Shown: positions 15,575-63,842 of the stretch, piece after piece
Layout of the letters: every line of letters begins with the position of its first letter
Numbering within the stretch: position 1 is the stretch's first letter
Origin: Lolium rigidum
Lineage: Eukaryota > Streptophyta > Magnoliopsida > Poales > Poaceae
Length of the DNA: 64,000 nt
Reading direction: 5' to 3'
NCBI RefSeq assembly: GCF_022539505.1
Contig: NC_061508.1
Span: forward strand, 345,353,484-345,417,483
Notes under the pieces: model-generated
Database searches by the model: none
What the model saw: only the letters and a program-made list of their open reading frames with translations
Told to the model about the DNA's origin: nothing
Made by a program: the position numbers and the translations under genes

Positions 15575-15585
15575 AGTAGATTTTC

Positions 15586-18149: not shown

Positions 18150-18199
18150 GGCGATCCAAGTGGCTGCCTCTCTCGGACGCTGGGTGTACAGGCGGTGTA

Positions 18200-20922: not shown

Positions 20923-20925
20923 TAA

Positions 20926-28067: not shown

Positions 28068-29671
28068 TGCTGGCGTGTAGTTGACACACGTCTATTGGGA
28101 ACCCCAAGAGGAAGGTGTGATGCGTACAGCAGTAAGTTTTCCCTCAGTAAGAAACCAAGGTTATCGAACCAGTAGGAGTCAAGGGCCACGTGAAGGTTGT
28201 TGGTGACGGAGTGTAGTGCGGCGCAACAACAGGGATTCCGGCGCCAACGTGAAACCTGCACAACACAATCACAATACTTTGCCCCAACTTAACGGTGAGG
28301 TTGTCAATCTCACCGGCTTGCTTGTAAACAAAGGATTAAACGTATGGTGTGGAAAATGATGTTTGTTTGCGAAGAACAGTAGAGAACAGAGTTTGCAGTA
28401 GATTGTATTTCACATGTAAAAGAATGGACCGGGGTCCACAGTTCACTAGTGGTGTCTCTCCAATAAGATAAATAGCATGTTGGGTGAATAAATTACAGTT
28501 GGCAATTGACAAATAGAGAGGGCATAACAATGCACATACATATCACGATGACTACTATGAGATTTAATCAGGGCATTACGACAAAGTACATAGACCGCTA
28601 TCCGGCATGCATCTATGCCTAAAAGTCCACCTTCGAGGTTAGCATCCGCACCCCTTCCAGTATTAAGTTGCAAACAACGAGACAATTGCATTAAGTATGG
28701 TGCGTAATGTAATCAACACAAATATCCTTAGACAAAGCATTGATGTTTTATCCCTAGTGGCAACAACACATCCACAACCTTAGAACTTTCCGTCACTTGT
28801 TCCGCATTCAATGGAGGGATGAACCCACTATCGAGCATAAATACTCCCTCTTGGAGTTACAAGTATCAACTTGGCCGAGCCTCTACTAGCAACGGAGAGC
28901 ATGCAAGAACATAAACAACACATATATGATAGATTGATAATCAACTTGACATAGTATTCCATATTCATCGGATCCCAACAAACACAACATGTAGCATTAC
29001 AAATAGATGATCTTGATCATGATAGGCAGCTCACAAGATCTAACATGATAGCACAATGAGGAGAAGACAACCATCTAGCTACTGCTATGGACCCATAGTC
29101 CAAGGATGAACTACTCACACATCAGTCCGGAGGCGATCATGGTGATGAAGAGTCCTCCGGGAGATGATTCCCCTCTCCGGCGAGGGTGCCGGAGGCGATC
29201 TCCTGAATCCCCCGAGATGGGATTGGCGGCGGCGGCGTCTGCGGAACTATTTCCGTATCGTGGCTCTCGGTAATAGGGTTTTCGCGACGGAGAGTTTAAG
29301 TAGGCGGAAGGGCAGAGTCGGAGGCGGCGCGAGGGCCCCACACCATAGGCCGGCGCGGGCCCCATGCTGGCCGCGCCGCCCTATGGTTACGGCCCCTCGT
29401 GGCCCCACTTCGTATGCTCTTCGGTCTTCTGGAAGCTCCATGGAAAAACAAGACCCTGGGCGTTGATTTCGTCCAATTCCGAGAATATTTCCTTTGTAGG
29501 ATTTCTGAAACCAAAAACAGCAAAAAACAGCAACTGGCGCTTCGGCATCTTGTCAATAGGTTGGTGCCGGAAAATGCATATAAATGATGTAAAGTGTGTA
29601 TAAAACATGTGAGTATTGTCATAAAAGTAGCATGGAACATAAGAAATTATAGATACGTTTGAGACGTATCA
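28068..29671 (-). repeat. 3' LTR of X
   Basis: 1604 bp with TG/CA ends (minus strand TGATACGTCTCAAACG to CTACACGCCAGCA). It matches 53801-55404 almost throughout. Confidence 0.92.
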
Positions 29672-30430
29672 AGCATCCCCAAGCTTAGTTCCTACTCGCC
29701 CTCGAGTAGGTAAACGATAACAAGGATAATTTACTGAAGTGACATGCTATCATAATCTTGATCAATACTATTGTAAAGCATATGAGATGAATGAAGTGAT
29801 TCGAAGCAATGGTAAAGACAATGACTAAACAACTGAATCATATAGCAAAGACTTTTCATGAATAGTACTTTCAAGACAAGCATCTATAAGACTTGCATAG
29901 GAGTTAACTCATAAAGCAATAAATTCTTAGTAGAAAGCTTTGAAACAACACAAAGGAAGATATAACTTTCAGCAGTTGCTTTCAACTTCAACATGTTTAT
30001 CTCATGGATATATATCTCATGGATAATTGTCAACACAAAGTAATATGATGAATGAAAATAAGCAAGTATGTAGGAATTAATGCACACATTTGACACAAGT
30101 GTTTGCTTCTAAGATAGAAAGAAGTAGGTAAACTGACTCAACATAAAGTAGAAGAATGGCCCTTCGCAGAGAGAAGCATGGATTACTGTTTTTGTGCAAG
30201 AGCTTTTCATTTTGAAAACATAGAATCAATTTTGCCAACGGTAGTAATAATTCATATGTGTTATGCATAACATATCCTATAAGTCGCAAGCCTCATGCAT
30301 AGAGTACCAATAGTGCTCGCACCTTGTCCTAATTAGCTTGGATTTACATGGATTATCATGCATAACATATGTTTCAACCAAGTGTCACAAAGGGGTACCT
30401 CTATGCCGCCTGTACAAAGGTCCAAGGAGA
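29672..30430 (-). other. 3' internal region of X (non-coding), left of Z
   Basis: On the minus strand it ends at AAGCTTGGGGATGCT, the purine-rich tract before the 3' LTR. It aligns with the 3' non-coding region of Y (58260-58972, opposite orientation). There is no coding frame. It stops at a junction with Z's LTR at about 30431 because part of X has been deleted. Confidence 0.8.
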
Positions 30431-31966
30431 TAGCAAGTTTTCCCTCAGAAAGAAACCAAGGTTTATCGAACCAGGAGGAGCCAAGAAGCACGTTGAAGGT
30501 TGATGGTGGCGGAATGTAATACGGCGCAACACCAGGGATTCCGGCGCCAACGTGGAACCTGCACAACACAACCAAAGTACTTTGCCCCAACGAAACAGTG
30601 AGGTTGTCAATCTCACCGGCTTGCTGTAACAAAGGATTAACCGTATTGTGTGGAAGATGATTGTTTGCGAGAAAACAGTAAAGAACAATTGCAGTAGATT
30701 GTATGCGATGTAAAGAATAGGACCGGGGTCCACAGGTTCACTAGAGGTGTCTCTCCCATAAGATAAAAGCATGTTGGGTGAACAAATTACGGTCGGGCAA
30801 TTGACAAATAGAGAGGGCATAACAATGCACATACATGACATGATAAATATAGTGAGATTTAATTGGGCATTACGACAAAGTACATAGACCGCTATCCAGC
30901 ATGCATCTATGCCTAAAAAGTCCACCTTCGAGGTTATCATCCGAACCCCTTCCAGTATTAAGTTGCAAAACAACGAGACAATTGCATTAAGTATGGTGCG
31001 TAATGTAATCAATAACTACATCCTTAGACATAGCATCAATGTTTTATCCCTAGTGGCAACAAGCACATCCACAACCTTAGAACTTTACGTCACTCGTCCC
31101 AGATTTAATGGAGGCATGAACCCACTATCGAGCATAAATACTCCCTCTTGGAGTTAAGAGCAAAAACTTGGCCGAGCCTCTACTAATAACGGAGAGCATG
31201 CAAGATCATAAACAACACATAGGTAATAACTTGATAATTAACATAACATAGTATTCTCTATCCATCGGATCCCGACAAACACAACATATAGTATTACGGA
31301 TAGATGATCTTGATCATGTTAGGCAGCTCACAAGATCCAACAATGAAGCACAATGAGGAGAAGACAACCATCTAGCTACTGCTATGGACCCATAGTCCAG
31401 GGGTGAACTACTCACTCATCACTCCGGAGGCGACCATGGCGGTGAAGAGTCCTCCGGGAGATGAATCCCCTCTCCGGCGAGGTGCCGCGAGAGATCTCCG
31501 GAATCCCCCGAGATGGGATTGGCGGCGGAGGCGTCTCGATAGGTTTTTCGTATCGTGGCTCTCGGTACTGGGGGTTTCGCGACGGAGGCTATTTGTAGGC
31601 GGAAGGGCAGGTAAAGAGGCGGCACGAGGGGCCCACACCATAGGTCGGCGCGGCTAGGGCCTGGGCCGCGCCGCCCTGGTTCGCCACCTCGTGGCCCCAC
31701 TTCGACTCTCCTTCGGTCCTCTGGAAGCTTCGTGGCAAAATAGGACCCTGGGCGTTGATTTCGTCCAATTCCGAGAATATTTCTTTACTAGGATTTCTGA
31801 AACCAAAAACAGCGAGAAAACGAGCAAGCGGCTCTTCGGCATCTTGTTAATAGGTTAGTTCCGAGAAAATGCACGAATATGACATAAAGTGTGCATAAAA
31901 CATGTAGATATCATCAATAATGTAGCATGGAACATAAGAAATTATCGATACGTCGGAGACGTATCG
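30431..31966 (-). repeat. 3' LTR of Z, missing its outer 62 bp
   Basis: It aligns with 35574-37109 through the whole length. Frames such as 30401-31012 and 31403-31657 occur in both LTRs and are not genes. Confidence 0.88.
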
Positions 31967-34428
31967 GCATCCCCAAGCTTAGTTACGCTCGTCCCGAGCA
32001 GGTAAACGATAAGAAAGATAATTTCTGGAGTGACATGCCATCATAACCTTGATCATACTATTTGTAAACATATGTAATGAATGCAGCGATCAAAACAATG
32101 GTAATGACATGAGTAAACAAGTGAATAATAAAGCAAAGACTTTTCATGAATAGCACTTCAAGACAAGCATCAATAAGTCTTGCATAAGAGTTAACTCATA
32201 AAGCAATAAATCAAAGTAAAGGTATTGAAGCAACACAAAGGAAGATTAAGTTTCAGCGGTTGCTTTCAACTTGTAACATGTATATCTCATGGATAATTGT
32301 CAACATAGAGTAATATAATAAGTGCAATATGCAAGTATGTAGGAATCAATGCACAGTTCACACAAGTGTTTGCTTCTTGAGGTGGAGAGAAATAGGTGAA
32401 CTGACTCAACATAAAAGTAAAAGAATGGTCCTGCAAAGAGGAAAGCATCGATTGCTATATTTGTGCTAGAGCTTTTATTTTGAAAACATGAAACAATTTT
32501 GTCAACGGTAGTAATAAAGCATATGAGTTATGTAAATTATATCTTACAAGTTGCAAGCCTCATGCATAGTATACTAATAGTGCCCGCACCTTGTCCTAAT
32601 TAGCTTGGACTACCGGATCATCGCAATACACATGTTTTAACCAAGTGTCACAATGGGGTACCTCCATGCCGCCTGTACAAAGGTCTAAGGAGAAAGCTCG
32701 CATTTTGGATTTCTCGCTTTTGATTATTCTCAACTTAGACATCCATACCGGGACAACATGGACAACAGATAATGGACTCCTCTTTAATGCATAAGCATGT
32801 GGCAACGATTATTATTCTCATATGAGATTGAGGATATATGTCCAAAACTGAAACTTCCACCATGAATCATGGCTTTAGTTAGCGGCCCAATGTTCTTCTC
32901 TAACAATATGCATGCTCCAACCATTAAGGTGGTAGATCTCTCTTACTTCAGACAAGACGGACATGCATAGCAACTCACATGATATTCAACAAAGAGTAGT
33001 TGATGGCGTCCCCGAAACATGGTTATCGCACAACAAGCAACTTAATAAGAGATAAAGTGCATAAGTACATATTCAATACCACAATAGTTTTTAAGCTATT
33101 TGTCCCATGAGCTATATATTCCAAGGCGAATGATGGAATTTTAAAGGTAGCACTCAAGCAATTTACTTTGGAATGGCGGAGAAATACCATGTAGTAGGTA
33201 GGTATGGTGGACACAAATGGCATAGTGGTTGGCTCAAGGATTTTGGATGCATGAGAAGTATTCCCTCTCGATACAAGGTTTAGGCTAGCAAGGTTATTTG
33301 AAACAAACACAAGGATGAACGGTGCAGCAAAACTCACATAAAAGACATATTATAAACATTATAAGACTCTACACCGTCTTCCTTGTTGTTCAAAACTCAA
33401 TACTAGATATTATCTAGACTTTAGAGAGACCAAATATGCAAACCAAATTAGCAAGCTCTAGGTGTTTCTTTATTAATGGGTGCAAAGTATATGATGCAAG
33501 AGCTTAAACATAAGCACAACAATTGCCAAGTATCAAATTATCCAAGACATTTTAGAATTACTACATGTAGCATTTTCCAATTCCAACCATATAACAATTT
33601 AACGAAGAAGAAACTTCGCCATGAATATTATGAGTACAGCCTAAGGACATACTTGTCCATATGCAACAGCGGAGCGTGTCTCTCTCCCATACAGTGAATG
33701 CTAGGATCCATTTTATTCAATCAAAACAAAAACAAAAACAAACCGACGCTCCAAGCAAAGCACATAAGATGTGACGGAATAAAAATATAGTTCCAGGGGA
33801 GGAACCTGATAATGTTGTCGATGAAGAAGGGGATGCCTTGGGCATCCCCAAGCTTAGACGCTTGAGTCTTCTTAAAATATGCAGGGGTGAACCACCGGGG
33901 CATCCCCAAACTTTAGAGCTTTCACTCTCCTTAATCATATTGCATCATACTCCTCTCTTGATCCTTGAAAACTTCCTCCACACCAAACTCGAAACAACTC
34001 ATTAGAGGGTTAGTGGACAATAAAAATTAACATGTTCAGAGGTGACACAATCATTCTTAACACTTCTGGACATTGCATAAAGCTACTGGACATTAATGGA
34101 TCAAAGAAATTCATCCAACATAGCAAAAGAGGCAATGCGAAATAAAAGACAGAATCTGTCAAAACAGAACAGTCCGTAAAAATGGATTTTATTGAGGCAC
34201 CAGACTTGCTCAAATGAAAATGCCCAAATTGAATGAAAGTTGCGTACATATCTGAGGATCACGCACGTAAATTGGCTTAATTTTCTGAGCTACCTACAGG
34301 GAGGCAGGTCGAAATTCGTGACAGCAAAGAAATCTGAAACTGCGCAGTAATCCAAATCTAGTATGAACTTTACTATCAAAGACTTTACTTGGCACAACAA
34401 AACACAAAACTAAGATAAGGAGAGGTTG
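31967..34428 (-). other. 3' internal region of Z, non-coding
   Basis: AT-rich sequence alignable with the 3' regions of X (37110-38800) and Y (56380-58260). Shared words include CTTCCACCATGATTCATGG, GGCATCCCCAAGCTTAG and CTAGGATCC. No supported ORF. Confidence 0.75.
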
Positions 34429-35274
34429 CTACAGTACTTGGGCTTTACCCTTACCTTTCTTGTTCTTTTTCTTACTCTTTGGCTTAGGGAATATATGACT
34501 ACCCCCGGGTGTAGAGGTGAATTTTAGGGTGCCTTCTCTCATGTCTATGACTGCTCCCAATAGTTTCAGCAGGGATCTTCCGAGTGTGATTTGTCCTGTT
34601 CCTGCGCATTTAATGACAAGATGATCAATGGATATTGTTCTCCCAAGAATGGTTGTATGCACACCCTCAGCTATTCCTTTAGGAATTATAACAGAGTTAT
34701 CAATAAGAGTTATTCCTTCTCCCCCTTCAGCAAATTCCCAAAGTTTCAAAGATTTATGAATACTCTTAGGCATTAGGCAAAATTCAGTCATAATATCACA
34801 ATTAGCATGAAGAGTTTGGTCACCTATGACAATTTTAATAGTAGGATCCCATAATGAAGGTTCAGAGTTCACTAAAACTTGATCAAGACGGTTACGAATA
34901 TATCCATAATTTTCATTTAAGCGAGATGCACTTGTCTCAAGAGTGTTTAATCTATTATAAATGCTAATAAGGGCTGAATCAAAGTTATTAGCTGAATCAT
35001 GTGATGCAACCAACTTCTTTATGGCATTAAAAGCTTGATCCCCATTGCAATGAAGGAAATCTCCTCACACTAGAGCATCCAAGGCATATCTATAGCGAAT
35101 CATAAGACCAAAATAAAAATTACTAAGGAGTAAACTTAGAGTCATTTGAGGTTCAGCTTTACGATAAGAAGTAAAAATCCTGGACCAAGCATCTTTAAAA
35201 CTTTCCTCATCCCCTTGTTTAAAAGTAAAAACTAATTCCTCAGGTGAAGAAGTAACAGGTACAGAGCTAGACAT
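34429..35274 (-). pseudogene. Gag/aspartic-protease-like ORF of Z with one stop
   Basis: ATG at 35272-35274 reads MSSSVPVTSSPEELVFTFKQ, then a gag-like helical region (FKDAWSRIFTSYRKAEPQMT). A TGA at 35065-35067 interrupts the frame, which resumes in phase to 34429. The second half resembles a retropepsin fold: NCDIMTEFCLMPKSIHKSL sits where D-[ST]-G-[AS] is expected, followed by GRTISIDHLVIKC and ITLGRSLLKLLGAVIDMREG. The catalytic triad is not conserved, so the protease is probably inactive. It ends in a Lys-rich tail. No reverse transcriptase follows. Confidence 0.7.
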
Positions 35275-35482
35275 GATAACAAAAGTAAACTAAATGCAAG
35301 TAACTAATTTTTTTTTGTGTTTTTGATATAGAGTGCAAGACAGTAAATAAAGTAAAGCTAGCAACTAATTTTTTTGTGTTTTGATATAATGCAGCAAACA
35401 AGAAAGTAAATAAAATAAAGCAAGACAAAAACAAAGTAAAGAGATTGGATTGTGGAGACTCCCCTTGCAGCGTGTCTTGATC

Positions 35483-35500
35483 TCCCCGGCAACGGCGCCA
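35483..35500 (-). promoter_or_regulatory. tRNA-Asp primer-binding site of Z
   Basis: Minus strand TGGCGCCGTTGCCGGGGA, exactly complementary to the plant tRNA-Asp 3' end, 11 bases inside the 5' LTR. Confidence 0.9.
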
Positions 35501-35511
35501 GAAAACAGTCT

Positions 35512-37109
35512 TGATGCGTGCAGATGACACACGTCCGTTGGGAAACCCCAAGAGGAATGTGTGATGCAGACAGTAGCAAGTTTTCCCTCAGAAAGAAACC
35601 AAGGTTTATCGAACCAGGAGGAGCCAAGAAGCACGTTGAAGGTTGATGGTGGCGGAATGTAATGCGGCGCAACACCAGGGATTCCGGCGCCAACGTGGAA
35701 CCCGCACAACACAACCAAAGTACTTTGCCCCAACGAAACAAGTGAGGTTGTCAATCTCACCGGCTTGCCGTAACAAAGGATTAACCGTATTGTGTGGAAG
35801 ATGATTGTTTGCAGAAAATAGTAAAGAACAATTGCAGTAGATTGTATGCGATGTAAAGAATAGGACCGGGGTCCACAGTTCACTAGAGGTGTCTCTCCCC
35901 ATAAGATAAAAGCATGTTGGGTGAACAAATTACAGTCGGGCAATTGACAAATAGAGAGGGCATAACAATGCACATACATGACATGATAAATATAGTGAGA
36001 TTTAATTGGGCATTACGACAAAGTACATAGACCGATATCCAGCATGCATCTATGCCTAAAAAGTCCACCTTCAGGTTATCATCCGAACCCCTTCCAGTAT
36101 TAAGTTGCAAAACAACAGACAATTGCATTAAGTATGATGCGTAATGTAATCAATAACTACATCCTTAGACATAGCATCAATGTTTTATCCCTAGTGGCAA
36201 CAACACATCCACAACCTTAGAACTTTCCGTCACTCGTCCCGCATTTAATGGAGGCATGAACCCACTATCGAGCATAAATACTCCCTCTTGGAGTTAAGAG
36301 CAAAAACTTGGCCGAGCCTCTACTAATAACGGAGAGCATGCAAGATCATAAACAACACATAGGTAATAACTTGATAATTAACATAACATAGTATTCTCTA
36401 TCCATCGGATCCCGACAAACACAACATATAGTATTACAGATAGATGATCTTGATCATGTTAGGCAGCTCACAAGATCCAACAATGAAGCACAATGAGGAG
36501 AAGACAACCATCTAGCTACTGCTATGGACCCATAGTCCAGGGGTGAACTACTCACTCATCACTCCGGAGGCGACCATGGCGGTGAAGAGTCCTCCGGGAG
36601 ATGAATCCCCTCTCCGGCAGGGTGCCGGAGGAGATCTCCGGAATCCCCCGAGATGGGATTGGCGGCGGCGGCATCTCGCAAGGTTTTCCGTATCGTGGCT
36701 CTCGGCATCGGGGGTTTCGCGACGGAGGCTATTTGTAGGCGGAAGGGCAGGTAAAGAGGCGGCACGAGGGGCCCACACCATAGGTCGGCGCGGCCGTGGC
36801 CTCGGGCCGCGCCGCCCTGGTGTTTCGCCACCTCGTGGCCCCACTTCGACTCTCCTTCGGTCTTCCGGAAGCTTCGTGGCAAAATAGGACCCCGGGCGTT
36901 GATTTCGTCCAATTCCGAGAATATTTCTTTAGTAGGATTTCTGAAACCAAAAACAGCGAGAAAACAAAGAATCGGCTCTTCGGCATCTTGTTAATAGGTT
37001 AGTTCCAGAAAATGCACGAATATGACATAAAGTGTGCATAAAACATGTAGATATCATCAATAATGTAGCATGGAACATAAGAAATTATCGATACGTCGGA
37101 GACGTATCA
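35512..37109 (-). repeat. 5' LTR of Z
   Basis: 1598 bp. Minus strand begins TGATACGTCTCCGACG and ends GTCATCTGCACGCATCA. Confidence 0.9.
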
Positions 37110-38802
37110 ATGTCCAAACTGAAACTTCCACCATGATTCATGGTTTTAGTTAGCGGCCCAATGTTCTTCTCTAACAATATGCATACTCAAACCATTTGAT
37201 CATGATAAATCACCCTTACTTCAGACAAGACGAACATGCATAGCAACTCACATGATATTCAACAAAGGTGTAATAGTTGATGGCGTCCCCGTAAACATGG
37301 TTACCGCTCAACAAGCAACTTATAAGAAATAAGATACATAAGTAACATATTCAATACCACAATAGTTTTTAAGGCTATTTTCCCATGAGCTATATATTGC
37401 AAAGACAAGGAATGAAATTTTAAAGGTAGCACTCAAGTAATTTACTTTGGAATGGCAGAGAAATACCATGTAGTAGGTAGGTATGGTGGACACAAATGGC
37501 ATAGTTTTTGGCTCAAGGATTTGGATGCACGAGAAGAATTCCCTCTCAATACAAGGCTTTGGCTAGCAAGGTTGTTTGAAGCAAACTCAAGTATAAACCG
37601 GTACAGCAAAACTTACATAAGAACATATTGCAAGCATTATAAGACTCTACACTGTCTCCTTGTTGTTCAAACACCTTAACCAGAAAATATCTAGACTTTA
37701 GAGAGACCAATCATGCAAACCAAATTTCAACAAGCTCTATGGTAGTTCTTCATTAATGGGTACAAAATACATGATGCAAGAGCTTAAACATGATCTATTT
37801 GAGCACAACAATTGCCAAATATCAAATTATTCAAGACATTATACCAATTACCACATGAAGCATTTTCTGTTTCCAACCATATAACAATGAACGAAGCAGT
37901 TTCAACCTTCGCCATGAACATTAAAAGTAAAGCTAAGAACACCAGTGTTCATATGAAACAGCGGAGCATGTCTCTCTCCCAAACAAAGAATGCTAGGATC
38001 CGATTTTATTCAAACACAAACAAAAATAAAAACATACATACGCTCCAAGTAAAGCACATAAGATGTGACGGAATAAAAATATAGTTTCACTAGAGGTGAC
38101 CTGATAAGTTATCGATGAAGAAGGGATGCCTTGGGCATCCCCAAGCTTAGATGCTTGAGTCTTCTTAAAATATGCAGGGATGAACCACGGGGGCATCCCC
38201 AAGCTTAGACTTTTCACTCTTCTTGATCATATTGTATCATCCTCCTCTATTGACCCTTGAAAACTTCCTCCACACCAAACTCAAAACAAACTCATTAGAG
38301 GGTTAGTGCATAATCGAAAATTCACATATTCAGAGGTGACATAATCATTCTTAACACTTCTGGACATTGCACAAAGCTACTGAAAGTTAATGGAACAAAA
38401 AAATCCATCCAACATAGCAAAACAGGCAATGCGAAATAAAAGGCAGAATCTGTCAAAACAGAACAGTCTGTAAATACGGATTTTTCAGGGGCACTTAACT
38501 TGCTCAGATGAAAAAGCTCAAATTGAATGAAAGTTGCGTACATATCTGAGGATCACGCACGTAAATTGGCAGATTTTTCTGAGTTACCTACAGACGGGGC
38601 TACTCAATTTCGTGACAGCAAGAAATCTGTTTCTGCGCAGTAATCCAATTCTAGTATCAACCTTACTATCAAAGACTTTACTTGGCACAACAATGCAATA
38701 AAATAAAGATAAGAAGAGGTTGCTACAGTAGTAACAACTTCCAAGACTCAAATATAAAACAAAAGTGCAGAAGTAAAATAATGGGTTGTCTCCCATAAGC
38801 GT
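37110..38802 (-). other. Internal region of X between Z and the Mutator-like element, non-coding
   Basis: It aligns with Z and Y 3' regions. The right edge GGTTGTCTCCCATAAGCG continues on the far side of the Mutator insertion at 51388 (TTTTCTTTAACGCCTTTCAG). No ORF is supported. Confidence 0.75.
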
Positions 38803-51427: not shown

Positions 51428-52333
51428 TCAAGTATTATCAAGAGATGAAGCATCAACATCGTAATTTGTTCTAATAATAGAATCATAAGGTAACTTCATT
51501 CTCTTCATAGGGAAGTGTGCCATACCTTTCTTGAGAAGAAATTGATACTTAATATTCCCTTCCTTCATATCAATGATAGCACCAACAGTTCGAAGAAAAG
51601 GTCTTCCCAAAATAATGGGACAAGATGCATTGCATTCAATATCCAAGACAACAAAATCAACCGGGACAAGGTTATTGTTAACCGTAATGCGAACATTATC
51701 AATTCTCTCCAAAGGTTTCTTTATAGCATGATCAGCAAGATTAACATCCAAATAACAATTTTTCAATGGTGGCAAGTCAAGCATATCATAAATTTTCTTA
51801 GGTATAACAAAATTACTTGCACCAAGATCACATAAAGCATTACAATAAAAATCATTGACCTTCATCTTAATGATGAGCTCCCAACCATCTTCTAACTTCC
51901 TAGGAATAGAAGTTTCAAGTTTTAATTTATCTTCTCTAGCTTTTATGAGAGCATTTGTAATATGTTTTGTAAAGGCCAAATTTATAGCACTAACATTAGG
52001 ACTTCTAGCAAGTTTTTGTAAGAACTTAATAACTTCAGAGATATGACAATCATCAAAATATAAACCATTATGATCTACAGCAATGGGATCATTATCCCCA
52101 ATATTTTGAAAAATTTCAGCAGTTTTATCAGTTCAGATAGCTTTAGCAGCTCAGATAGCTTCGAGCAATTTTGCACGCTTTGCACTAGGAGTAGAAACAT
52201 TGCCAACACCAATTATTTTACCATTGATAGTAGGAGGTTTAGCAACATGTGAAACATCATCATTACTAGTGGTGGTAATAGTCCAAACTTTAGCTACATT
52301 GTTCTGTTTAGCTAGTTTTTCTTTTTTTCCCAC
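51428..52333 (-). pseudogene. Protease-like domain of X, downstream of gag, with frame breaks
   Basis: After gag the frame shifts once. It then reads EKLAKQNNVAKVWTITTTSN and VAKPPTINGKIIGVGNVSTP, two in-frame stops near 52140, and a long open part from 51979. That part is retropepsin-like: FYCNALCDLGASNFVIPKKI carries DLGAS where active proteases have D-[ST]-G-[AS]; then VDFVVLDIECNASCPIILGR and PFLRTVGAIIDMKEG. This arrangement is typical of Athila-type Gypsy gag-pro. No reverse transcriptase follows before the non-coding 3' region, which the Mutator insertion splits just downstream. Confidence 0.75.
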
Positions 52334-52374
52334 CTAGCATGCAATTCAGCCATCAATCTAATATTTTCATTAAT

Positions 52375-53538
52375 TCAAACTTGGATGGTGTTTGCTGTAG
52401 AAAATGACTTAATATATTTATCTTCTTTAGGCATAGCTTTCAATTTTAAAAGTTCAACATCAGAGGAAAGACTATCAACCTTAGAAGCAAGAATATCAAT
52501 TTTACCAAGCTTTTCTTCAACAGATTTGTTAAAAGCTGTTTGTGTACTAATAAATGCTTTAAGCATGGCTTCAAGACCAGGGGGTACACTCCTATTATTG
52601 TTGTAATAATTACCATAAGAATTACCATAACCATTACCATTATTAGAAGGATATGGCCTATAGTTGTTACCAGAATTATTCCTATAAGCATTGTTGTTGA
52701 AATTATTATTGTTAATGAAGTTCACATCAACATGCTCTTCTTGAGCAACCAATGAAGCTAAAGGAACATTATTAGGATCAACATTAGATCTACCATTCAC
52801 AAGCATAGACATAATAGCATCAATCCTATCACTCAAGGAGGAGGTTTCTTCAACAGAATTTACCTTATTACCTTGTGGAGTCCTTTCAGTGTGCCATTCA
52901 GAGTAATTGATCATCATATCATCAATAAGATTTGTCGCCGCGCCTAAGGTGATGGACATAAAAGTACCTCCAGCAGCTGAATCCAATAGGTTCCGCGAAG
53001 AAAAATTCAGTCCTGCATAAAAGGTTTGGATGATCATCCAAGTAGTAAGTCCATGGGTAGGGCAATTCTTTACCAAAGATTTCATTCTTTCCCATGCTTG
53101 AGCAACATGCTCATTATCCAATTGCTTAAAATTTATTATGCTACTTCTCAAAGATATAATTTTAGCAGGAGGATAATATCTACCAATGAAAGCTTCCTTA
53201 CATTTAGTCCATGAATCAATACTATTTTTAGGCAAAGATAGCAACCAATCTTTAGCTCTTCCTCTTAAGGAGAAAGGAAACAATTTCAGTTTTATAATGT
53301 CACCATCTACATCCTTATACTTTTGCATTTCACAAAGTTCAACAAAATTCTTAAGATGGGCAGCAGCATCATCAGAACTAACACCAGAAAATTGCTCTCT
53401 CATAACAATATTTAGTAAAGCAGGTTTAATTTCATAAAATTCTGCTGTAGCAGCAGGTGGAGCAATAGGTGTGCATAAGAAATCATTATTATTTGTGCTA
53501 GTGAAGTCACACAACTTAGTATTCTCAGGAGTACCCAT
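52375..53538 (-). CDS. Gag polyprotein of element X
   Basis: An intact 387-residue frame from the ATG at 53536-53538, about 235 bp downstream of the primer-binding site, the usual place for gag. Residues 55-125 form the retrotransposon gag domain (HLKNFVELCEMQKYKDVDGD, KLFPFSLRGRAKDWLLSLP, CKEAFIGRYYPPAK). Residues 275-325 are Asn/Gly/Tyr-rich and the end is helical (SVEEKLGKIDILASKVDSLS). No CCHC knuckle. Gag would form the virus-like particle. Belongs to the Athila-like Gypsy group by sequence pattern. Confidence 0.85.
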   Translation of the reverse strand: MGTPENTKLCDFTSTNNNDFLCTPIAPPAATAEFYEIKPALLNIVMREQFSGVSSDDAAAHLKNFVELCEMQKYKDVDGDIIKLKLFPFSLRGRAKDWLLSLPKNSIDSWTKCKEAFIGRYYPPAKIISLRSSIINFKQLDNEHVAQAWERMKSLVKNCPTHGLTTWMIIQTFYAGLNFSSRNLLDSAAGGTFMSITLGAATNLIDDMMINYSEWHTERTPQGNKVNSVEETSSLSDRIDAIMSMLVNGRSNVDPNNVPLASLVAQEEHVDVNFINNNNFNNNAYRNNSGNNYRPYPSNNGNGYGNSYGNYYNNNRSVPPGLEAMLKAFISTQTAFNKSVEEKLGKIDILASKVDSLSSDVELLKLKAMPKEDKYIKSFSTANTIQV

Positions 53539-53772
53539 TTTAGCAGTAGTAAATAAAGCAAACTAAATAAAGTAAATGCAAGTAACTAATTTTTTGTGTT
53601 TTTAATATAGAGAACGCAAACAAGACAGTAAATAAAGTAAATCTAGTAACTAATTTTTTTGTGTTTTTGATATAAAGAACAAACAAAGCAGTAAATAAAG
53701 TAAAGTAAAGCAAGACAAAAACAAGGTAAAGAGATTGGATGTGGGAGACTCCCCTTGCAGCGTGTCTTGATC

Positions 53773-53790
53773 TCCCCGGCAACGGCGCCA
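53773..53790 (-). promoter_or_regulatory. tRNA-Asp primer-binding site of X
   Basis: Minus strand TGGCGCCGTTGCCGGGGA, ten bases from the 5' LTR edge at 53801. Confidence 0.9.
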
Positions 53791-53800
53791 GAAAATATCT

Positions 53801-55404
53801 TGCTGGCGTGTAGTTGACACACGTCTGTTGGGAACCCCAAAAGGAAGGTGTGATGCGTACAGCAGCAAATTTTCCCTTAGTAAGAAACCAAGGTTATCGA
53901 ACCAGTAGGAGTCAAGGGCCACATGAAGGTTGTTGGTGACGGAGTGTAGTGCGGCGCAACACCAGGGATTTCGGCGCCAACGTGGAACCTGCACAACACA
54001 ATCACAATACTTTGCCCCAACTTAACAGTGAGGTTGTCAATCTCACCGGCTTGCTGTAAACAAAGGATTAAACGTATGGTGTGGAAAATGATGTTTGTTT
54101 GCGAAGAACAGTAGAGAACAGAGTTTGCAGTAGATTGTATTTCAGATGTAAAAGAATGGACCGGGGTCCACAGTTCACTAGTGGTGTCTCTCCAATAAGA
54201 TAAATAGCATGTTGGGTGAACAAATTACAGTTGGGCAATTGACAAATAGAGAGGGCATAACAATGCACATACATATCACGATGAATACTATGAGATTTAA
54301 TCAGGGAATTACGACAAAGTACATAGACCGCTATCCAGCGTGCATCTATGCCTAAAAAGTCCACCTTCAGGTTAGCATCCGCACCCCTTCCAGTATTAAG
54401 TTGCAAACAACAGACAATTGCATTAAGTATGGTGCGTAATGTAATCAACACAAATATCCTTAGACAAAGCATTGATGTTTTATCCCTAGTGGCAACAAGC
54501 ACATCCACAACCTTAGAACTTTCATCACATCGTCCCGCATTCAATGGAGGCATGAACCCACTATCGAGCATAAATACTCCCTCTTGGAGTTACAAGTATC
54601 AACTTGGTCGAGCCTCTACTAGCAACGGAGAGCATGCAAGAACATAAACAACACATATATGATAGATTGATAATCAACTTGACATAGTATTCCATATTCA
54701 TCGGATCCCAACAAACACAACATGTAGCATTACAAATAGATGATCTTGATCATGATAGGCAGCTCACAAGATCTAACATGATAGCACAATGAGGAGAAGA
54801 CAACCATCTAGCTACTGCTATGGACCCATAGTCCAAGGATGAACTACTCACACATCAGTCCGGGAGGCGATCATGGTGATGAAGAGTCCTCCGGGAGATG
54901 ATTCCCCTCTCCGGCAGGGTGCCGGAGGCGATCTCCTGAATCCCCCGAGATGGGATTGGCGGCGGCGGCGTCTCTGGAACTATTTCCGTATCGTGGCTCT
55001 CGGTAATAGGGTTTTCACGACGGAGAGTTTAAGTAGGCGGAAGGGCAGAGTCGGAGGCGGCGCAGGGGCCCCACACCATAGGCCGGTGCGGGCCCCATGC
55101 TGGCCGCGCCGCCCTATGGTTACGGCCCCTCGTGGCCCCACTTCGTATGCTCTTCGGTCTTCTGGAAGCTCCGTGGAAAAATAAGACCCTGGGCGTTGAT
55201 TTCGTCCAATTCCGAGAATATTTCCTTTGTAGGATTTCTGAAACCAAAAACAGCAGAAAACAGCAACTAGCGCTTCGGCATCTTGTCAATAGGTTAGTGC
55301 CAGAAAATGCATATAAATGATGTAAAGTGTGTATAAAACATGTGAGTATTTTCATAAAAGTAGCATGGAACATAAGAAATTATAGATATGTTTGAGACGT
55401 ATCA
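53801..55404 (-). repeat. 5' LTR of X
   Basis: 1604 bp, matching 28068-29671. The terminal CA/TG are intact. Frames at 54068-54571 and 54873-55373 are LTR sequence, not genes. Confidence 0.92.
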
Positions 55405-55445
55405 CCCAACACTGTCTACAGGAAAAGAAGTGTGCGTAGACATCA
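55405..55445 (+). repeat. 5' LTR of Y, right tail after X
   Basis: CCCAACACTGTCTACAGG through GCGTAGACATCA completes the LTR broken at 28067, and repeats the CCCAA duplication. Confidence 0.92.
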
Positions 55446-55455
55446 AGCTATTTTC

Positions 55456-55473
55456 TGGCGCCGTTGCCGGGGA
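55456..55473 (+). promoter_or_regulatory. tRNA-Asp primer-binding site of Y
   Basis: TGGCGCCGTTGCCGGGGA, ten bases inside the restored 5' LTR. Confidence 0.9.
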
Positions 55474-55619
55474 GGTAAGGTAAAAGATATTCACATCCTC
55501 CGACTACTAAGCTATTTCCTAGCACTGTTGCCGGTGTGTGAGTGCTCGAAGTTATTTCCTTTAGATCCTGCAATTATATCTTTTTGTTTCTTGTTTTTAT
55601 TTTTCACTAGTTAGGCTTA

Positions 55620-56351
55620 ATGGAAAATAACAAAAAAATTACAGATCTTTATGAACTTTATATTGAATTAGGACATGATGTGTTTGAAGAGAGAATTAAA
55701 AAACCCGTGGAACTTTGTTTGCAAAATAGTTGTAGCAATGTTATTAGCATGAACTCTTTGAAGACTATTATTGCTAATGCTATGGAAGAATATAAGCTTG
55801 GGAAAGCTGGTTGTGATATTTTTTGTCCCCCAAGTTTTGAGGAGAAAATTTTCTTTGATGATACTTTGCCTCCCATTTATGATGATTATAATGATAGTGG
55901 TATTTTGGTGCCACCTACTATGGAGGATAAAGTTTATTATGATTATACCATGCCTGCAATTTATGATGATTACAATGATGGTTGTGATAGTTTTACTCCC
56001 ACTATTACTAATAAAATTGATTATGCTTATATGGAGAGTAATGATACTTTTATGCATGTGAATAAGAATGCTTTATGTGATAGTTATATTGTTGAGTTTG
56101 TTCATGATGCTATTGGAAATTATTATGAGAGAGGAAAATATGGTTGTAGAAATTTTCATGGTTCTAAAACACCTCTCTACATGCTGAAAATTTTGAAGTT
56201 ACTCGTGTTTTATCTTCCAATGCTTGTCACTTTGATCTTCATGAATTTATTTGTGTATAAGATTCCTATGCATAGGAAGCGGGTTAGGCTTAAATTTGTT
56301 TCATACTTGCTTGTTGATGCTCTCTTTGCTTCAACTCTCATCTTTATGTGA
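55620..56351 (+). CDS. Element Y ORF, 243 aa, with acidic repeats and a C-terminal hydrophobic segment
   Basis: The frame is open from ATG 55620, in the gag position after the primer site. It starts MENNKKITDLYELYIELGHD. Two acidic repeats follow, PPIYDDYND (84-92) and PAIYDDYND (112-120), each after a PP.(F/M)E(E/D)K motif. A hydrophobic segment at about 188-213 (ILKLLVFYLPMLVTLIFMNL) precedes a basic patch HRKRVRLK and a second hydrophobic tail. There is no gag helix domain, zinc knuckle or catalytic motif that I can name. Possibilities are a specialised non-autonomous gag or a membrane-associated accessory ORF. The reading frame is undamaged, unlike most ORFs here. Codon use is A/T-rich like the rest of Y. 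Confidence 0.6.
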   Translation: MENNKKITDLYELYIELGHDVFEERIKKPVELCLQNSCSNVISMNSLKTIIANAMEEYKLGKAGCDIFCPPSFEEKIFFDDTLPPIYDDYNDSGILVPPTMEDKVYYDYTMPAIYDDYNDGCDSFTPTITNKIDYAYMESNDTFMHVNKNALCDSYIVEFVHDAIGNYYERGKYGCRNFHGSKTPLYMLKILKLLVFYLPMLVTLIFMNLFVYKIPMHRKRVRLKFVSYLLVDALFASTLIFM

Positions 56352-58972
56352 GCATCATTAAAATTACTGAGCTCATCTTAATGGCTATAAAGAAAGCACT
56401 TCTTGGGAGATAATCCATGTTTTTATTTTGCTACTATTTTTTTGTGTCTTGGAAGTTGTTACTACTGTAGCAACCTCTCCTTATCTTTATTTTATTGCAT
56501 TGTTGTGCCAAGTAAAGTCTTTGATAGTAAAGTTGATACTAGATTTAGATTTCTGCGCAGAAACAGATTTCTAGCTGTCACGAATTTGAGTAGATCTCTC
56601 TGTAGGAAACTCTAAAAAATGTGCGAAAAATCATGAGTAATCCTCAGATACGTACACAACTTTCATTCAATTTGAGCTTCTTCATCTGAGCATGTTAAGT
56701 GCCTCTAAAAAATTGGTCTTTACGGAATGTTCTGTTTTGACAGATTCTGCCTTTTATTTCACATTGCCTCTTTTACTATGTTGAATGGATTTCTTTGCTC
56801 CATTAACTTTCAGTAGCTTTGGGTAATGTCCAGAAGTGTTAGGAATGATTGTGTCCTCTCTGAACATGTGAATTTTTGATTATGCACTAACCCTCTAATG
56901 AGTTTGTTTTGAGTTTGGTGTGGAGGAAGTTTTCAAGGATCAAGAGAGGAGGATGATATAATATGATCAAGAAGAGTGAAAAGTCTAAGCTTGGGGATGC
57001 CCCCGTGGTTCATCCCTGCATATTTCAAGAAGACTCAAGCATCTAAGCTTGGGGATGCCCAAGGCATCCCCTTCTTCATCGACAACTTATCGAGTCACCT
57101 CTAGTGAAACTATATTTTTATTCCGTCACATCTTATGTGCTTTACTTGGAGCGTCTGTATGTTTTTATTTTTGTTTGTGTTTGAATAAATTCGGATCCTA
57201 GCAATCCATGTGTGGGAGAGAGACACGCTCCGCTTTTTCATTTGAACACTTGTGTTCTTCGTTTTACTTTAATATTCATGGCTAAAGTTGAAAGCCGCGT
57301 TCATTGCTATTTGGTTGGAAACAGAAAATGCTTCATGTGGTAATTGGTATATGGTCTTCAATAATTTGATACTAGGCAATTGTTTTGAGCTCTCAAATGG
57401 ATCATGTTTGAGCTCTTGCATCATGTAGTTTGAACCTATTAGTGGAGAATTACTTTAGAGCTTGTTGAAATTTGGTTTGCATGATTGGTCTCTCTAAAGT
57501 CTAGATATTTTCTGGTAAAAGTGTTTGAACAACAAGGAGACAGTGTAGAGTCTTATAATGCTTGCAATATGTTCTTATGTAAGTTTTGCTGTACCGGTTC
57601 ATACTTGTGTTTGCTTCAAACAACCTTGCTAGCCAAAGCCTTGTACTGAGAGGGAATGCTTCTCGTGCATCCAAAACCTTGAGCCAAAACTTATGCCATT
57701 TGTGTCCACCATAACTACCTACTATGTGGTATTTCTCTGCCATTCCAAGTAAATTGCTTGCGTGCTACCTTTAAAATTTCATTCCTTGTCTTTGCAATAC
57801 ATAGCTCATGGGAAAATAGCTTTAAAAACTATTGTGGTATTGAATATGTTGCTTATGTATCTTATTTCTTATAAGTTGCTTGTTGAGCGGTAACCATGTT
57901 TCTGGGGACGCCATCAACTGTTACACCTTTGTTGAATATCATGTGAGTTGCTATGCATGTTCGTCTTGTCTGAAGTAAGGGTGATTTGTCATGATTAAAT
58001 GGTTTGAGTATGCATATTGTTAGAGAAGAACATTGGGCCGCCAACCAAAGCCATGTATCATGGTGGAAGTTTCAGTTTGGACATTAATCCTCAATCTCTT
58101 ATGAGAATATTATCTGTTGTTGAATGTTTAAGCATTAAAGAGGAGTCCATTATCTGTTTTCTATGTTGTCCCGGTATGGATGTCCTCAAGTTGAGATCTA
58201 TCAAAAACGAGAAATCAAATGCGATCTATCTCCTTGGACCTTTGTACAGGTGACATAGAGGTACCCCTTTGTGACACTTGGTTGAAACATATGTAATGCA
58301 ATGATAATCCATGGAAATCCGAGCTAATTAGGACAAGGTGCGAGCACTATTGGTATTCGATGCATGAGGCTTGCAACTTATAGGATGTTTTATGCATAAC
58401 ACATATGAATTATTACTACCGTTGACAAAATTGTTTCCATGTTTTCAAAATAAAAAGCTCTAGCACATAAGTAATCCCTGCTTCCCTCTGCGAAGGGCCT
58501 TTCTTTTACTTTATGTTGAGTCAGTTTACCTACTTCTTTCTATCTTAGAAGCAAACACTTGTGTCAACTGTGTGCATTGATTCTTACATACTTGCTTATT
58601 TGCATTCATCATATTACTTTGTGTTGACAATTATCCATGAGATATACATGTTGAAGTTGAAAGCAACTGCTGAAACTTATATCTTCCTTTGTGTTGCTTC
58701 AAAACCTTCTATTAAGAATCTATTGCTTTATGAGTTAACTCTTATGCAAGACTTATTGATGCTTGTCTTGAAAGTACTATTCATGAAAAGTCTTTGCTAT
58801 ATGATTCAGTTGTTTAGTCATTATCTTTACCATTGCTTTGAATCACTTCATTCATCTCATATGCTTTACAATAGTATTGATCAAGATTATGTTAGTAGCA
58901 TGTCACTTCAGAAATTATCCTTGTTATCGTTTACCTACTCGAGGGCGAGTAGGAACTAAGCTTGGGGATGCT
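56352..58972 (+). other. 3' internal region of Y, non-coding, ending in a polypurine tract
   Basis: About 2.6 kb without a supported ORF, alignable in inverse orientation with X (29672-30430, 37110-38800) and Z (31967-34428). It ends GGAACTAAGCTTGGGGATGCT immediately before the 3' LTR; AAGCTTGGGGATGC is the purine-rich primer tract. A second and third AAGCTTGGGGATGCCC occur at about 56988 and 57046. Confidence 0.75.
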
Positions 58973-60442
58973 TGATACGTCTCCAACGTATCTATAATTT
59001 CTTATGTTCCATGCTAGTTTTATGACAATACCTACATGTTTTATTCATACTTTATATCGTTTTGATGCATTTTCCGGTACTAACCTATTAACAAGATGCC
59101 GAAGCGCCGAGTTCTGTTTTCTGCTGTTTTTGGTTTCGGAAATCCTACACAGAAATATTCTCGGAATTGGACGAAACAAAAGCCAAACCTCCTATTTTAC
59201 CGAGACGGACCCGGAACACCGAAGGAGAGACGGAGAGGGGCCAAGGGGCCCACACCACCTGGCGGCGCGGCCAAGAGGGGCGCGCGCCAGCTATGGTGTG
59301 GGCCCCTCGGGACCCCTCCGACGCCGCCCTTTCGCCTATATAATCTCCCAGATGTGAAAACCCTAAAACACCCGATGATATTCCACGAAGAGTTCCGTAG
59401 CCGCCGCCATCGCGAAGACAAGTTTCGGGGGACAGAAGTCTCTGTTCCGGCACGCCGCCGGGACGGGGAATTGCCCCCGGAGTCATCTCCATCGACACCA
59501 CCGCCATCTTCATCGCCGTTGTTGTCTCCCATGATGAGGAGGGAGTAGTTCTCCCCCGAGGCTGAGGGCTCTACCGGTAGCTATGTGGTTCATCTCTCTC
59601 TCCCATGGTGTGATCTTTATGTGATCATGAGCTTTGTATCACTATTAATCTATGTGCTACTCTAGTGATGTTATTAAAGTAGTCTATTCCTCCTCCATGA
59701 TGTAAAGTTGACATTGTGTGCATCATGTAGTACTTGGCGTAGGTTATGATTGTAATCTCTTGTAGATTATGAAGTTAACTATTACTATGATAATATTGAT
59801 GTGATCTATTCCCCCTTTCATAACTATTGGTTACAGTGTGTATGCTATGTTAGTACTCGGTCTAAATTGCAACGGTCTGTTATGCACTCTAGAGGTTACT
59901 TTAATATGAACTCCGGACGTTGTGGAGCTTGTTTACTCCGGCTTGAGGTGTGCTTTTATAGCCCTACACAATGAATGATGTTTCTTATCCAACAAGAGAG
60001 TGTTTGAAAGTAGCACAAGTGAAGAGAAGTTATTTATTTATGTGATCATTGTTGAGAGTGTCCGCTAGTGAAAGTATGATCCATAGGCCTTGTTTCTAAG
60101 CATTGAAACACCGTTTCTAACAAGTTCTGCTACATGTTTGCTTGCTGCCATTTTTATTTCAGATTGCAATTACTACTTACAATCATCCATATTACTTGTA
60201 TTTCACTATATCTTCGCCGAACTAGTGCACCTATTCATCTGACAAGTGTATGTGTTGGGGACACAAGAGACTTCTTGTATCTTAATTGCAGGGTTGCTTG
60301 AGAGGGATATCTTTGACCTCTACCTCCCTGAGTTCGATAAACCTTGGGTGATTCACTTAAGGGAAACTTGCTGTTGTTCTACAAACCTCTGCTCTTGGAG
60401 GCCCAACACTGTCTACAGGAAAAGAAGTGTGCGTAGACATCA
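58973..60442 (+). repeat. 3' LTR of Y
   Basis: 1470 bp, TGATACGTCTCC...GTAGACATCA, followed by the target duplication ATGGT at 60443-60447. Confidence 0.93.
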
Positions 60443-60816: not shown

Positions 60817-61208
60817 AACTGTACTCGCCCGTGTGCGGAACTGTACCTGTACTTACGCGCGACTGTACCTGCTCGTGTGCGCCATTGTACTTCTGTACAT
60901 GTACTTGCTCGTGTTCACGACTGTACCTGCTCGTATGCGCGTTTGTACCTGCTCGTGTGCGTGACTGTACTTGTACTCGCTCGTGTGTTCAACTGTACTC
61001 GTGTGTTATGCGTGACTGTACCTGCTCGTATGCACGACTGTACCTGGTCGTGTGCGCTACTGTACTTATGTACATGTACTTGGTTGTGTGAGCAATTGTA
61101 CCTACTTGTGTGCGCTTTTGTACTTGTACTCACACATGTTTGCAACTGTACCCTCGTGTGTTGTATGTAACTGTGCTCGTGCTTCTACATAACTGTACTC
61201 ATGTGTTT
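60817..61208. repeat. Minisatellite of GACTGTACCTGCTCGTGTGCG-like units
   Basis: About 18 imperfect units of 19-25 bp, built on CTGTACCTG/CTGTACTTG plus CTCGTGTGCG or a variant. TTGTACATGTACTTG variants appear at intervals, hinting at a longer higher-order unit. Cys/Val-rich frames across it are compositional. Confidence 0.85.
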
Positions 61209-61690
61209 GTATAGGATTATAATTATATGTTATGTGTAAGTGTACACGTATTGGAAACTAAGCCAGAGATGTGGTTGCATGCATATGCTAGCCTGCTTGT
61301 GCATGGACGTGCTCGCGAGCAAACTACCAGGAGACATACTCGCGCGGCGCTGGACGAAGCACGCGCGAGGTGTCGTACGCGCGCGGCGCGGGACGACGTG
61401 GAGCGGAAAGAATGCACTTGTTGCTACGCATCGTTTCGTAGTTTTTTCGATAAAGAATGTTTTATTACTTTGATAAGCACGCATCGTTTCGTAGTGGGTC
61501 TATTTTTCCTTTACGAAGGTTGGTCTTTATTTAGTGGTACACGTCCGTATTAACTTTGCCGAGCGAGCGCGCCGTGCTGGCTCAACAACCATGAATCAAC
61601 GATGAGCGTCCATGATTATCTATACATCTACCCTCTGCTCTTAGAGGCCCAGTCGGTTGTTCCTCACCATTCATTCTCGCAACTACCACC
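61209..61690 (+). promoter_or_regulatory. Upstream region of the DUF3632-like gene
   Basis: GC-rich to about 61410, then mixed. Weak TATA-like candidates are CTTTATTTAG at about 61525 and CTATACATC at about 61620. The leader just before the ATG (CTCGCAACTACCACCATGCC) gives a good plant start context. A duplicated ACGCATCGTTTCGTAGT occurs at about 61427 and 61481. Confidence 0.3.
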
Positions 61691-62710
61691 ATGCCGCCCG
61701 TCGTTGAGCTTCGCTTGGAATTTGACAATGAAGGCGCGGTCTACTTCGCGCCGCGGGTCATCGAGATACTCAATTCGACGCTGCCCGTCGACGGAGCAAA
61801 GACGCCCGTCGAAGCCGCCGCCGCACTTGATGCCCTGTTCGATGAGAACTACTCCGCAGAAGCCGATGATAGCGCAGAGGGTTTCCTGTGGTGGTTCTGG
61901 ACCTTGATGCACGACCTGTCGCGCCAAGTGCCACACAACAGCCCGGAGGCTGAGAGGCTGGCGAGCACGCTTAAGGCGCTGCACGATCTGCCAACCAAAT
62001 CCGTGAAGCTCGGCAAGTCATGGGGCGGTGGAACCCTGGAGCAGTGGCGAGACATGCCCTTTTTCGGCCCCTCCTACCGCGAGGCCCTCGACGATGGTAA
62101 GTAACGCGCTCTTTTCCTTGCTGCTCCGACTTCCGACTTCGCGTGCGTCCACCATTGCTGGCCGGCTGACCAAGCTCCGATCCTTGCGCGCGCGCATGCA
62201 GACCCCGGAGCAGCAGATGAAGAAGGCAGGAAGCAGCGGTTCGTGAACCTGCAGAGTTACGCGGCGAGAGCGGCGGGTCTGGGAGTCATCGAGGTGGAGG
62301 GATGGTGCTTGTGGGCGCTGTGGACGCTGGTCGAGGCGCTCGAGGGCTCCATGACGCCGGTCAGAGGTGCTCCGGATGAGATCAACGACGATCCAGCTGC
62401 TGTGCAGGGCTACATGGTGAAGAGCGCCGCGGCATGGATCATCTTCGCCGGCAATCGTCTGTATGGACGAGACGAGGAGGTCGTTGGTGCCTCAGCCGGT
62501 CCACTCTGGAGACTCTGCAAGGAGGAAGCAGTCAAGTCGAAGAGGAAGACGAAAGGAACAGATGGGTTTTGCCCGGAGCGCTGGAATCTGTGGAAGCAGA
62601 GGTTCGCTCGGATAAGGGACACGGAGAAATTAGAGGCAGATGTTCGGAGCGAGGCGGGCTGTGCGGTCACTGCAATGGAGGCGGCGGAGAAATTTCATAC
62701 TCCTAGCTAG
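61691..62710 (+). CDS. Fungal-type DUF3632-like protein, two exons, 304 aa
   Basis: Exon 1 is 61691-62096 and exon 2 is 62202-62710 (TAG). The 105-bp intron has a G|GTAAGT donor and a GCATGCAG acceptor, splitting the codon of Asp136. The protein follows the DUF3632 pattern: an N-terminal helix pair with PVEAAAALDALF (39-50), FLWWFWTLMHDLSRQVP (65-81), PEAERLASTLKALHDLP (85-101), WRDMPFFGPSYREAL (119-133), then VNLQSYAARAAGLGV (150-164), LWALWTLVEALEG (172-184), the AAAWIIFAGNRLYG block (211-224), PERWNLWKQRFARI (260-273) and a C-terminal helix. Length and order match fungal members, which have no assigned biochemical role. The frame is undamaged and spliced with plant-like signals, GC-rich like a grass gene. 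I infer a resident gene of fungal ancestry; assembly contamination is unlikely because it sits within grass repeats. Confidence 0.72.
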
Positions 62711-62997
62711 GGAGTAAACTGGAAAGGTCAAACACGGATGAAGAAATGTCAGCAAATGCCTCTGATGCTTGCTCGTTGGTACTATAGTATATTGCGATAA
62801 AAATACCAGCGTCATGTCGAAATTGTCAAATAAGAATAGTATCTGCTCGGCAAAACTTACATACATGTAAGCGAGTTCTAAGTAAATGAGGAAAGGCAGC
62901 GGATGCGTATTTACTTTTGACGAATGCGCGTTGAGTCTCTTGTGTCAGAGTTAAGTTAGCGGACTTAGGGTACATTGGTTTAGACAATTTGGGTTTG
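62711..62997. other. 3' flank of the DUF3632-like gene
   Basis: A possible polyadenylation signal GATAAAAATA lies near 62796. Nothing else. Confidence 0.35.
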
Positions 62998-63329
62998 TAT
63001 AATTACTCCATGTCATATGCGTAGTATAAATAATGATATATACAATAATCTGCATGTAATTTGTCTATTTTTAGCCATATCTACGTGTGAGTTTAAATTA
63101 AAGACGCCGTTCATACAACAACAAAAGTGATGTTTGTAAGATATCTGTAAGAAGACTACAGACTGTCTAGAACTTTATAGCTCTCTCTTTCATCATTCTA
63201 TTTCCTCCACATCATCAAAGTCACCTACAACTACCTTTTGCAGAAAGTTAAATCATCACCATTGTAGATGTCTTAAGGGCATGTACAACAGTCACTGTAA
63301 AATCAATAATGTAGGAAATCTGAACGACG

Positions 63330-63369
<40 letters not shown>

Positions 63370-63842
63370 GAGAGAAGACGCACGTCTGTATAATTACAGT
63401 CAATCTACTCCGCAGAAATTGCTGCCTATAGACAACCTTTTCCCCGTTGTACGAAGGACATCGCGTATCGTGGCTGAGATAATCTCGTTTCCAGCTTTTC
63501 CAAGGTAGTCGAGAGAGATCAAATCTTCAACCTTTACTGAATCTCCTTATATCACGGTTCTTACCGATGGCCAATCAGACGGGTTGTTGTAATAGCACTT
63601 CATGTTATATATAGACAATAGTATAAACAATGTGTAAGCTATCTATTTTTATGTGTGAGTATAAGTTATAGACACCCTTCACACAACAACAAAATGATGT
63701 CTGTTAGCCGTCTATAAGAAGCCTACAGACCGTCTATAATTTCACATACAGCCTCCGTCCCTCTCTCTTATCATTCTCTTTCCTCTACATCACCTAAATC
63801 ACATATAACTACCCCTAGTCATTACCATTGTACATGCCATTA
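62998..63842. mobile_element. Two related MITE-like repeats in direct orientation
   Basis: Blocks 62998-63278 and 63576-63842 share AATTTGTCTATTTTTA/AAGCTATCTATTTTTA, ACAACAACAAAA.TGATGT, GAAG.CTACAGAC.GTCTA, CTCT..TCATTCT.TTTCCTC.ACATCA and end ACCATTGTA.ATG. The inner junction GGGCATGTACAACAGT at 63278 and ACCATTGTACATGCC at 63828-63842 are inverted termini, with TTAA on both outer sides. They look like a Harbinger-type MITE and a relative inserted beside it. Confidence 0.5.
63333..63366. repeat. (GA)n microsatellite
   Basis: About 17 GA units, slightly interrupted just after. Confidence 0.95.

Follow-up and report, generated by a model that had tools for sequence, protein, structure and literature searches.

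The 64,000-nucleotide window of Lolium rigidum DNA analysed here (C1:345353484-345417483 of a 2.44-Gb assembly) carries an intact, spliced gene of the DUF3632 family that is almost certainly of fungal origin and that has a second intact copy in the same genome, on contig C6. The transfer itself is not new, having been published for perennial ryegrass, L. perenne, where the gene was named LpDUF3632 (PMC7670438; Shinozuka et al., 2020). According to that report, LpDUF3632 is closest to Epichloe, is present in Loliinae, maps genetically to one position on linkage group 3 and is 88% identical at the DNA level (GenBank MG680923) to an E. festucae scaffold; another paper repeats the transfer as background (PMC8432771), and a third names DUF3632 as a family expanded in Clonostachys (PMC7896725). 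Among the papers listed by further literature searches there was no other report of the LpDUF3632 gene.

The gene lies on the forward strand and is composed of two exons (see table), the first starting with ATG and ending in phase 1 and the second including the TAG stop codon, separated by a 105 bp GT-AG intron that reads GTAAGT...GCATGCAG and ends in CAG. The spliced coding sequence of 915 bp contains no internal stops and encodes a 304-residue product, in a window free of any N. This product matches the Pfam family DUF3632 (PF12311) along the entire profile (positions 1-175 of 175; E 1.1e-33; 117.6 bits against a cut-off of 23), and each exon passes the cut-off separately (28.7 and 79.4 bits), a match far beyond chance. 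The initial annotation, which had proposed an intact 304-residue DUF3632-like gene spliced at 62096/62202, was thus accurate, the junction being exact.

Two protein searches, in each of which 7998 candidates were scored (the second listing matches at E ≤ 1e-30 only), yielded 57 distinct relatives. The 37 that are named comprise 36 ascomycete fungi, as judged from organism names, and a single L. perenne protein (P0001), which is 96% identical to the window product over 100% of its length and is encoded on a 354-Mb sequence of another assembly. No plant-wide DUF3632 family was seen among these candidates. The window product was aligned with 51 of the 57 relatives (P0052-P0057 were left out), and omission of 11 fragments gave an unrooted main tree of 41 rows. 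In this tree the two grass proteins, the Conoideocrella protein P0003 (Clavicipitaceae) and the unlabelled, 80%-identical protein P0002 lie on one side of a branch supported at 100/100, and this group joins other fungal rows at 93/90. Smaller trees had 15 and 16 rows; upon inclusion of the exons of an unlabelled 27,977-bp contig, the grass sequences were placed beside P0002 within the branch of that contig (89/86), a placement that was retained when the second copy was added (91/85). The grass stem is long, measuring 0.23-0.25 changes per site, whereas P0002 lies 0.005-0.017 away from the node common to both; this reflects either rapid change after the transfer or an unsampled, fast-evolving fungal lineage. 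Lateral transfer from an Epichloe-type (clavicipitaceous) fungus, as the initial annotation had suggested, is therefore supported both by the protein tree, in which the grass proteins are nested with fungal rows, and by the conclusion published for Lolium (PMC7670438). In the searches made, neither a broad presence in non-grass plants, nor hits unrelated to DUF3632, nor a chimeric contig was encountered.

The intron had been labelled plant-like, a description that does not stand: its position is common to fungal-type relatives, and it is of fungal descent. The unlabelled proteins P0016, P0019 and P0020, apparently predicted unspliced, have inserts at the splice point of the window gene, and P0022 and P0014, also unlabelled, are two exon open reading frames (ORFs) of the 27,977-bp contig that are split at the same place. 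A leader preceding exon 1 in the window is similar to the sequence found before exon 1 on that contig. A first tblastn search with the leader was weak (E 0.007, 13 residues); in the alignment then made of back-translated P0022 residues to the window, the score was 44.0, with 64 of 71 bases compatible, against control maxima of 21.2 for 200 other window stretches and 20.5 for 200 shuffles. The intron segment 62122-62161, about 25 nt inside the splice site, resembles the intron of the relative by a narrow margin (score 21.4, the highest of 500 shuffles reaching 20.7), and the 3' part of the intron gave no signal against P0014. A CTGAC motif reminiscent of a branch site is located 36 nt upstream of the 3' splice site; we take it to resemble the branch site of filamentous fungi. 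The leader is taken, from its resemblance to the relative, as co-transferred 5' sequence, and the shared intron position, together with the leader and partial intron resemblances, suggests that the intron probably arrived with the gene and that DNA rather than messenger RNA (mRNA) was transferred. The same conclusion appears in the earlier report, which also describes an intron position common to Epichloe (PMC7670438).

In the L. rigidum assembly DUF3632 is found at two places, in the window and on C6, all five candidates having been scored. Both exons of the C6 gene are above the Pfam cut-off. The 1.79-kb segment shared by the two loci belongs to a longer, interrupted collinear duplication: a comparison of about 118 kb of C6 with about 102 kb of C1, restricted to matches of at least 150 bp and at least 86% identity with at most three overlapping hits, gave 18 matches lacking a competing hit, 15 of which are collinear. 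An ORF with a fasciclin domain, detected on C1 beyond the right end of the window and likely to encode a plant fasciclin-like protein, falls within one of the duplicated pieces; it was the one hit obtained when eight of the 23 listed ORFs of that region (L004) were scanned with Pfam. Since the duplication is collinear and includes plant neighbours, the gene must have resided in the plant before the segment was duplicated, and a single transfer followed by duplication is very probably the correct sequence of events. An independent second transfer giving rise to the C6 copy was rejected on account of the shared grass-specific residues, the plant miniature inverted-repeat transposable element (MITE) and the collinear flanks.

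Features of the DUF3632 locus and of its duplicate (positions on the window scale unless a contig or region is named)
Feature	Position	Strand	Description
Plant repeat	61400..61544	.	Adjoins the unique interval on its upstream side; 39 of 41 listed matches fall in query positions 1-145 (query 61400-63000), the other two being the gene copies
Unique interval	61545..62969	.	Among the matches listed, matches in own genome are itself and the second copy only; plant repeats on both sides
Leader	61611..61682	+	Putative co-transferred 5' sequence
Exon 1	61691..62096	+	
Intron	62097..62201	+	
Exon 2	62202..62710	+	
MITE-like plant element, about 300 bp	~62970..63280	.	Dispersed over C1-C7 and beside both copies; 40 of 43 listed matches (query 62711-63600)
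Second DUF3632 gene	C6:318469467-318470481 (L003:2968-3982)		Intact; 100-bp intron; open 304-aa frame; 16 amino-acid differences
Duplicated segment	61539..63310 vs C6:318469315-318471103	.	1.79 kb, 95.0% identity
Collinear matches	15917-16426; 16977-21201; 22047-23825; 61539-63310; 63352-63541; 63904-67279; 68036-68354; 69506-69921		16977-21201 is fragmented and includes a single small local backward step
Non-collinear matches	55405-57059; 90489-90745		Two matches to the first interval, one to the second
Fasciclin-domain ORF	L004:1636-2622 (65152-66138)	-	Beyond the window, within duplicated 63904-67279

The gene is surrounded by plant sequence. Because matches to repeats stop at 61544 and resume at about 62970, the intervening 1.4 kb or so is the part devoid of plant repeats, and would mark approximately how far the foreign DNA extends at most in its present state. 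For these own-genome searches of the flanks, 40 of 157 candidates (61400-63000) and 40 of 301 (62711-63600) were scored; the latter query has three matches outside the dispersed element, one at each gene copy and one to a piece situated 26 kb past the copy on C6. The window holds 67 ORFs of at least 130 aa, 30 of which were scanned with Pfam from stop to stop: six contain retrotransposon domains (two of these below the curated cut-offs) and 24 matched nothing, the other 37 including the two frames of the gene itself, which were covered by the DUF3632 scan. Of the 954 relatives of a gag ORF in the window, 120 were listed, and L. multiflorum is the sole host named among these. The flanking grass repeats of the initial annotation are thus confirmed by the upstream repeats, the MITE-like element and the gag/pol ORFs.

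The repeat-rich interval from 23.8 to 61.5 kb of the window corresponds to 48 bp on C6 between the flanking matches. At 13992-15603, 26618-38752 and 53561-60406 there are repeats about 1.2-2.9 kb long, lying in either orientation and with 84-97% mutual identity. With the ORFs for retrotransposon gag and protease-like products at 51428-53562, they are probably nested retrotransposons that now part the gene from the neighbour it once had on its left. A diverged tandem array of a 22-bp repeat is found upstream of the gene, at 60817-61174.

The two copies differ by 17 synonymous and 17 nonsynonymous changes, corresponding to a synonymous rate (dS) of 0.084, a nonsynonymous rate (dN) of 0.025 and a ratio of 0.29 (Fisher P 0.0006). 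The intron, at 8.0% divergence, behaves like the synonymous sites, and both copies are open with intact splice sites. Differences between the window product and P0002 avoid those columns that are conserved among 38 rows other than grasses (5 of 56 against 16.2 expected; P 7.6e-5), on a branch that may be partly fungal, and of 13 differences from the L. perenne protein one lies at a conserved column against 3.6 expected (P 0.084), a number too small to discriminate. In the earlier report, LpDUF3632 is expressed in all ryegrass tissues tested and has a ratio of nonsynonymous to synonymous substitution (Ka/Ks) of 0.31 (PMC7670438). These data suggest that the gene is likely to have been kept by selection, both copies being intact probably through purifying selection, and are read as retention under reduced constraint. 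The alternative, by which the gene is a passenger, accidentally transferred and duplicated, of no use to the plant and still open because the events are recent, appears unlikely, in spite of several observations that count in its favour and weigh against retention by selection: the divergence of the 3' flank (2.3%) and of the leader (3.4%) is similar to the low value at nonsynonymous sites (2.5%), nine of the 17 synonymous changes are at CpG sites and outside these the rate ratio is 0.43, with a nonsynonymous deficit of only P 0.056, and the long grass stem fits relaxed constraint. The claim of the initial annotation that the gene has been kept is accordingly to be considered likely, given the open frames, the splice sites and the signals of constraint, on evidence that is modest.

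When window positions 61545-63310 are compared with the C6 locus, synonymous sites and the intron are diverged by about 8% against 2-3% for the flanks, CpG content accounting for part of the difference. P0001 shares the derived residues H82 and S128 (exon 1) and C241 (exon 2) with the window copy, and L150 and I245 (exon 2) with the C6 copy, so that its orthology to a single copy is ambiguous; it has the appearance of a mosaic of both copies, hinting at gene conversion or inter-copy exchange as one reading of these residues.

That the gene was inherited vertically, as an old eukaryotic gene retained by Loliinae and lost from other plants, or that it passed from grass to fungus, is very improbable: the grass proteins group strongly with Conoideocrella and, more broadly, with other fungal rows, the family is broad in ascomycetes, and in the published study Brachypodium, rice, sorghum, maize and Arabidopsis yielded no match (PMC7670438). 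In favour of these alternatives, the tree is unrooted and contains no other plants, so that the direction of transfer depends on sampling. As to the vector of the fungus-to-grass transfer, viral contigs scanned once with P0001 gave four pattern matches and no relative.

Two structure models of the protein match MIF4G domains, predicting a HEAT-like, largely helical fold along almost the entire chain, and the protein is likely to have a MIF4G-type HEAT fold, as judged from these models; fungal origin and such a fold are, taken jointly, also likely, if by a shade less. When 52 family members were scanned against Pfam (E ≤ 10, with HMMER filters switched on), 11 families were matched in all, and MIF4G is not one of them. 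A search of solved structures with the A1 profile recovered no sequence relative at E ≤ 10. A structure-based screen placed the DUF3632 protein PutPoxA of Parascedosporium, upregulated on wheat straw, among peroxidases (PMC10714830), which would make the family a peroxidase-like oxidative enzyme; the same text puts the Q-score at 0.01, calls the overlap poor and notes that a signal peptide is lacking, both models obtained here match MIF4G domains instead, and this assignment is highly unlikely.

A chimeric contig or endophyte contamination, to which the uniformly fungal nature of the nearest named non-grass relatives might point, is practically negligible, given that the copies are embedded in contigs measuring 364.7 and 361.8 Mb, that both copies have the plant MITE and collinear flanks in common, that a duplicated piece includes the fasciclin-domain ORF, that a separate L. 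perenne assembly encodes the protein, and that the gene was mapped genetically in ryegrass (PMC7670438).

The gene is best explained as the DUF3632 gene of the ryegrass lineage, known from the literature as LpDUF3632, or its paralogue. A clavicipitaceous fungus related to Epichloe probably donated DNA with leader and intron, which was inserted amid plant sequences, and a larger segmental duplication very probably carried the gene later to a second chromosome. As the most likely mechanism, the protein might bind a DEAD-box RNA helicase or another component of messenger ribonucleoprotein (mRNP), as MIF4G domains do, and thereby adjust plant translation or mRNA handling. A helicase or mRNP role, drawn by analogy, is nevertheless doubtful, and still more tentative is the proposal that DUF3632 is an unrecognised MIF4G-fold family whose grass member, taken from an endophyte-type fungus, fast-changed and duplicated, may be a lineage-specific regulator acting on RNA helicases of the plant itself or on its translation, perhaps while the grass lives with its endophyte.

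For crop and pasture grasses, gene transfer from fungi is a rare and debated event. The locus adds a genome-wide view of one transfer with a later segmental duplication, together with plant neighbours, into two intact copies, and its leader and intron point to DNA as the transferred material. The second copy and the predicted fold offer a first handle on possible function, and a MIF4G-type fold, if true, would open a domain of unknown function to bench experiments in both fungi and grass.

Among known systems, the closest is LpDUF3632 of L. perenne, which has one intron at the fungal position, surrounding plant repeats, a Loliinae distribution and, in P0001 as its putative product, near-identity to the window product; it differs in its single map position, as given in that paper, whereas L. 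rigidum has two intact copies on two contigs within a segmental duplication. The Clavicipitaceae DUF3632 proteins (P0003 of Conoideocrella, the unlabelled P0002 and EfM3.028800 of E. festucae) share with the grass proteins a similar length, the domain and the conserved WWFW, GxPDE, RDE and GPLW motifs, while the grass proteins have a two-residue insertion at about position 55, a two-residue deletion at about 206, T or A in place of D71, and M in place of K207. LpBGNL, LpFTRL and Fhb7 also have an Epichloe-like donor and a Pooideae recipient, but are other genes and, according to the published account, independent events (PMC7670438; PMC8432771). Finally, the MIF4G domains of eIF4G (middle domain), DAP5, Paip1, Gle1, CBP80, NOT1, UPF2 and CWC22 resemble DUF3632 in the predicted HEAT-like fold, with identities of 7-15% in the listed rows, and differ from it in that DUF3632 is a stand-alone protein of 300 residues.
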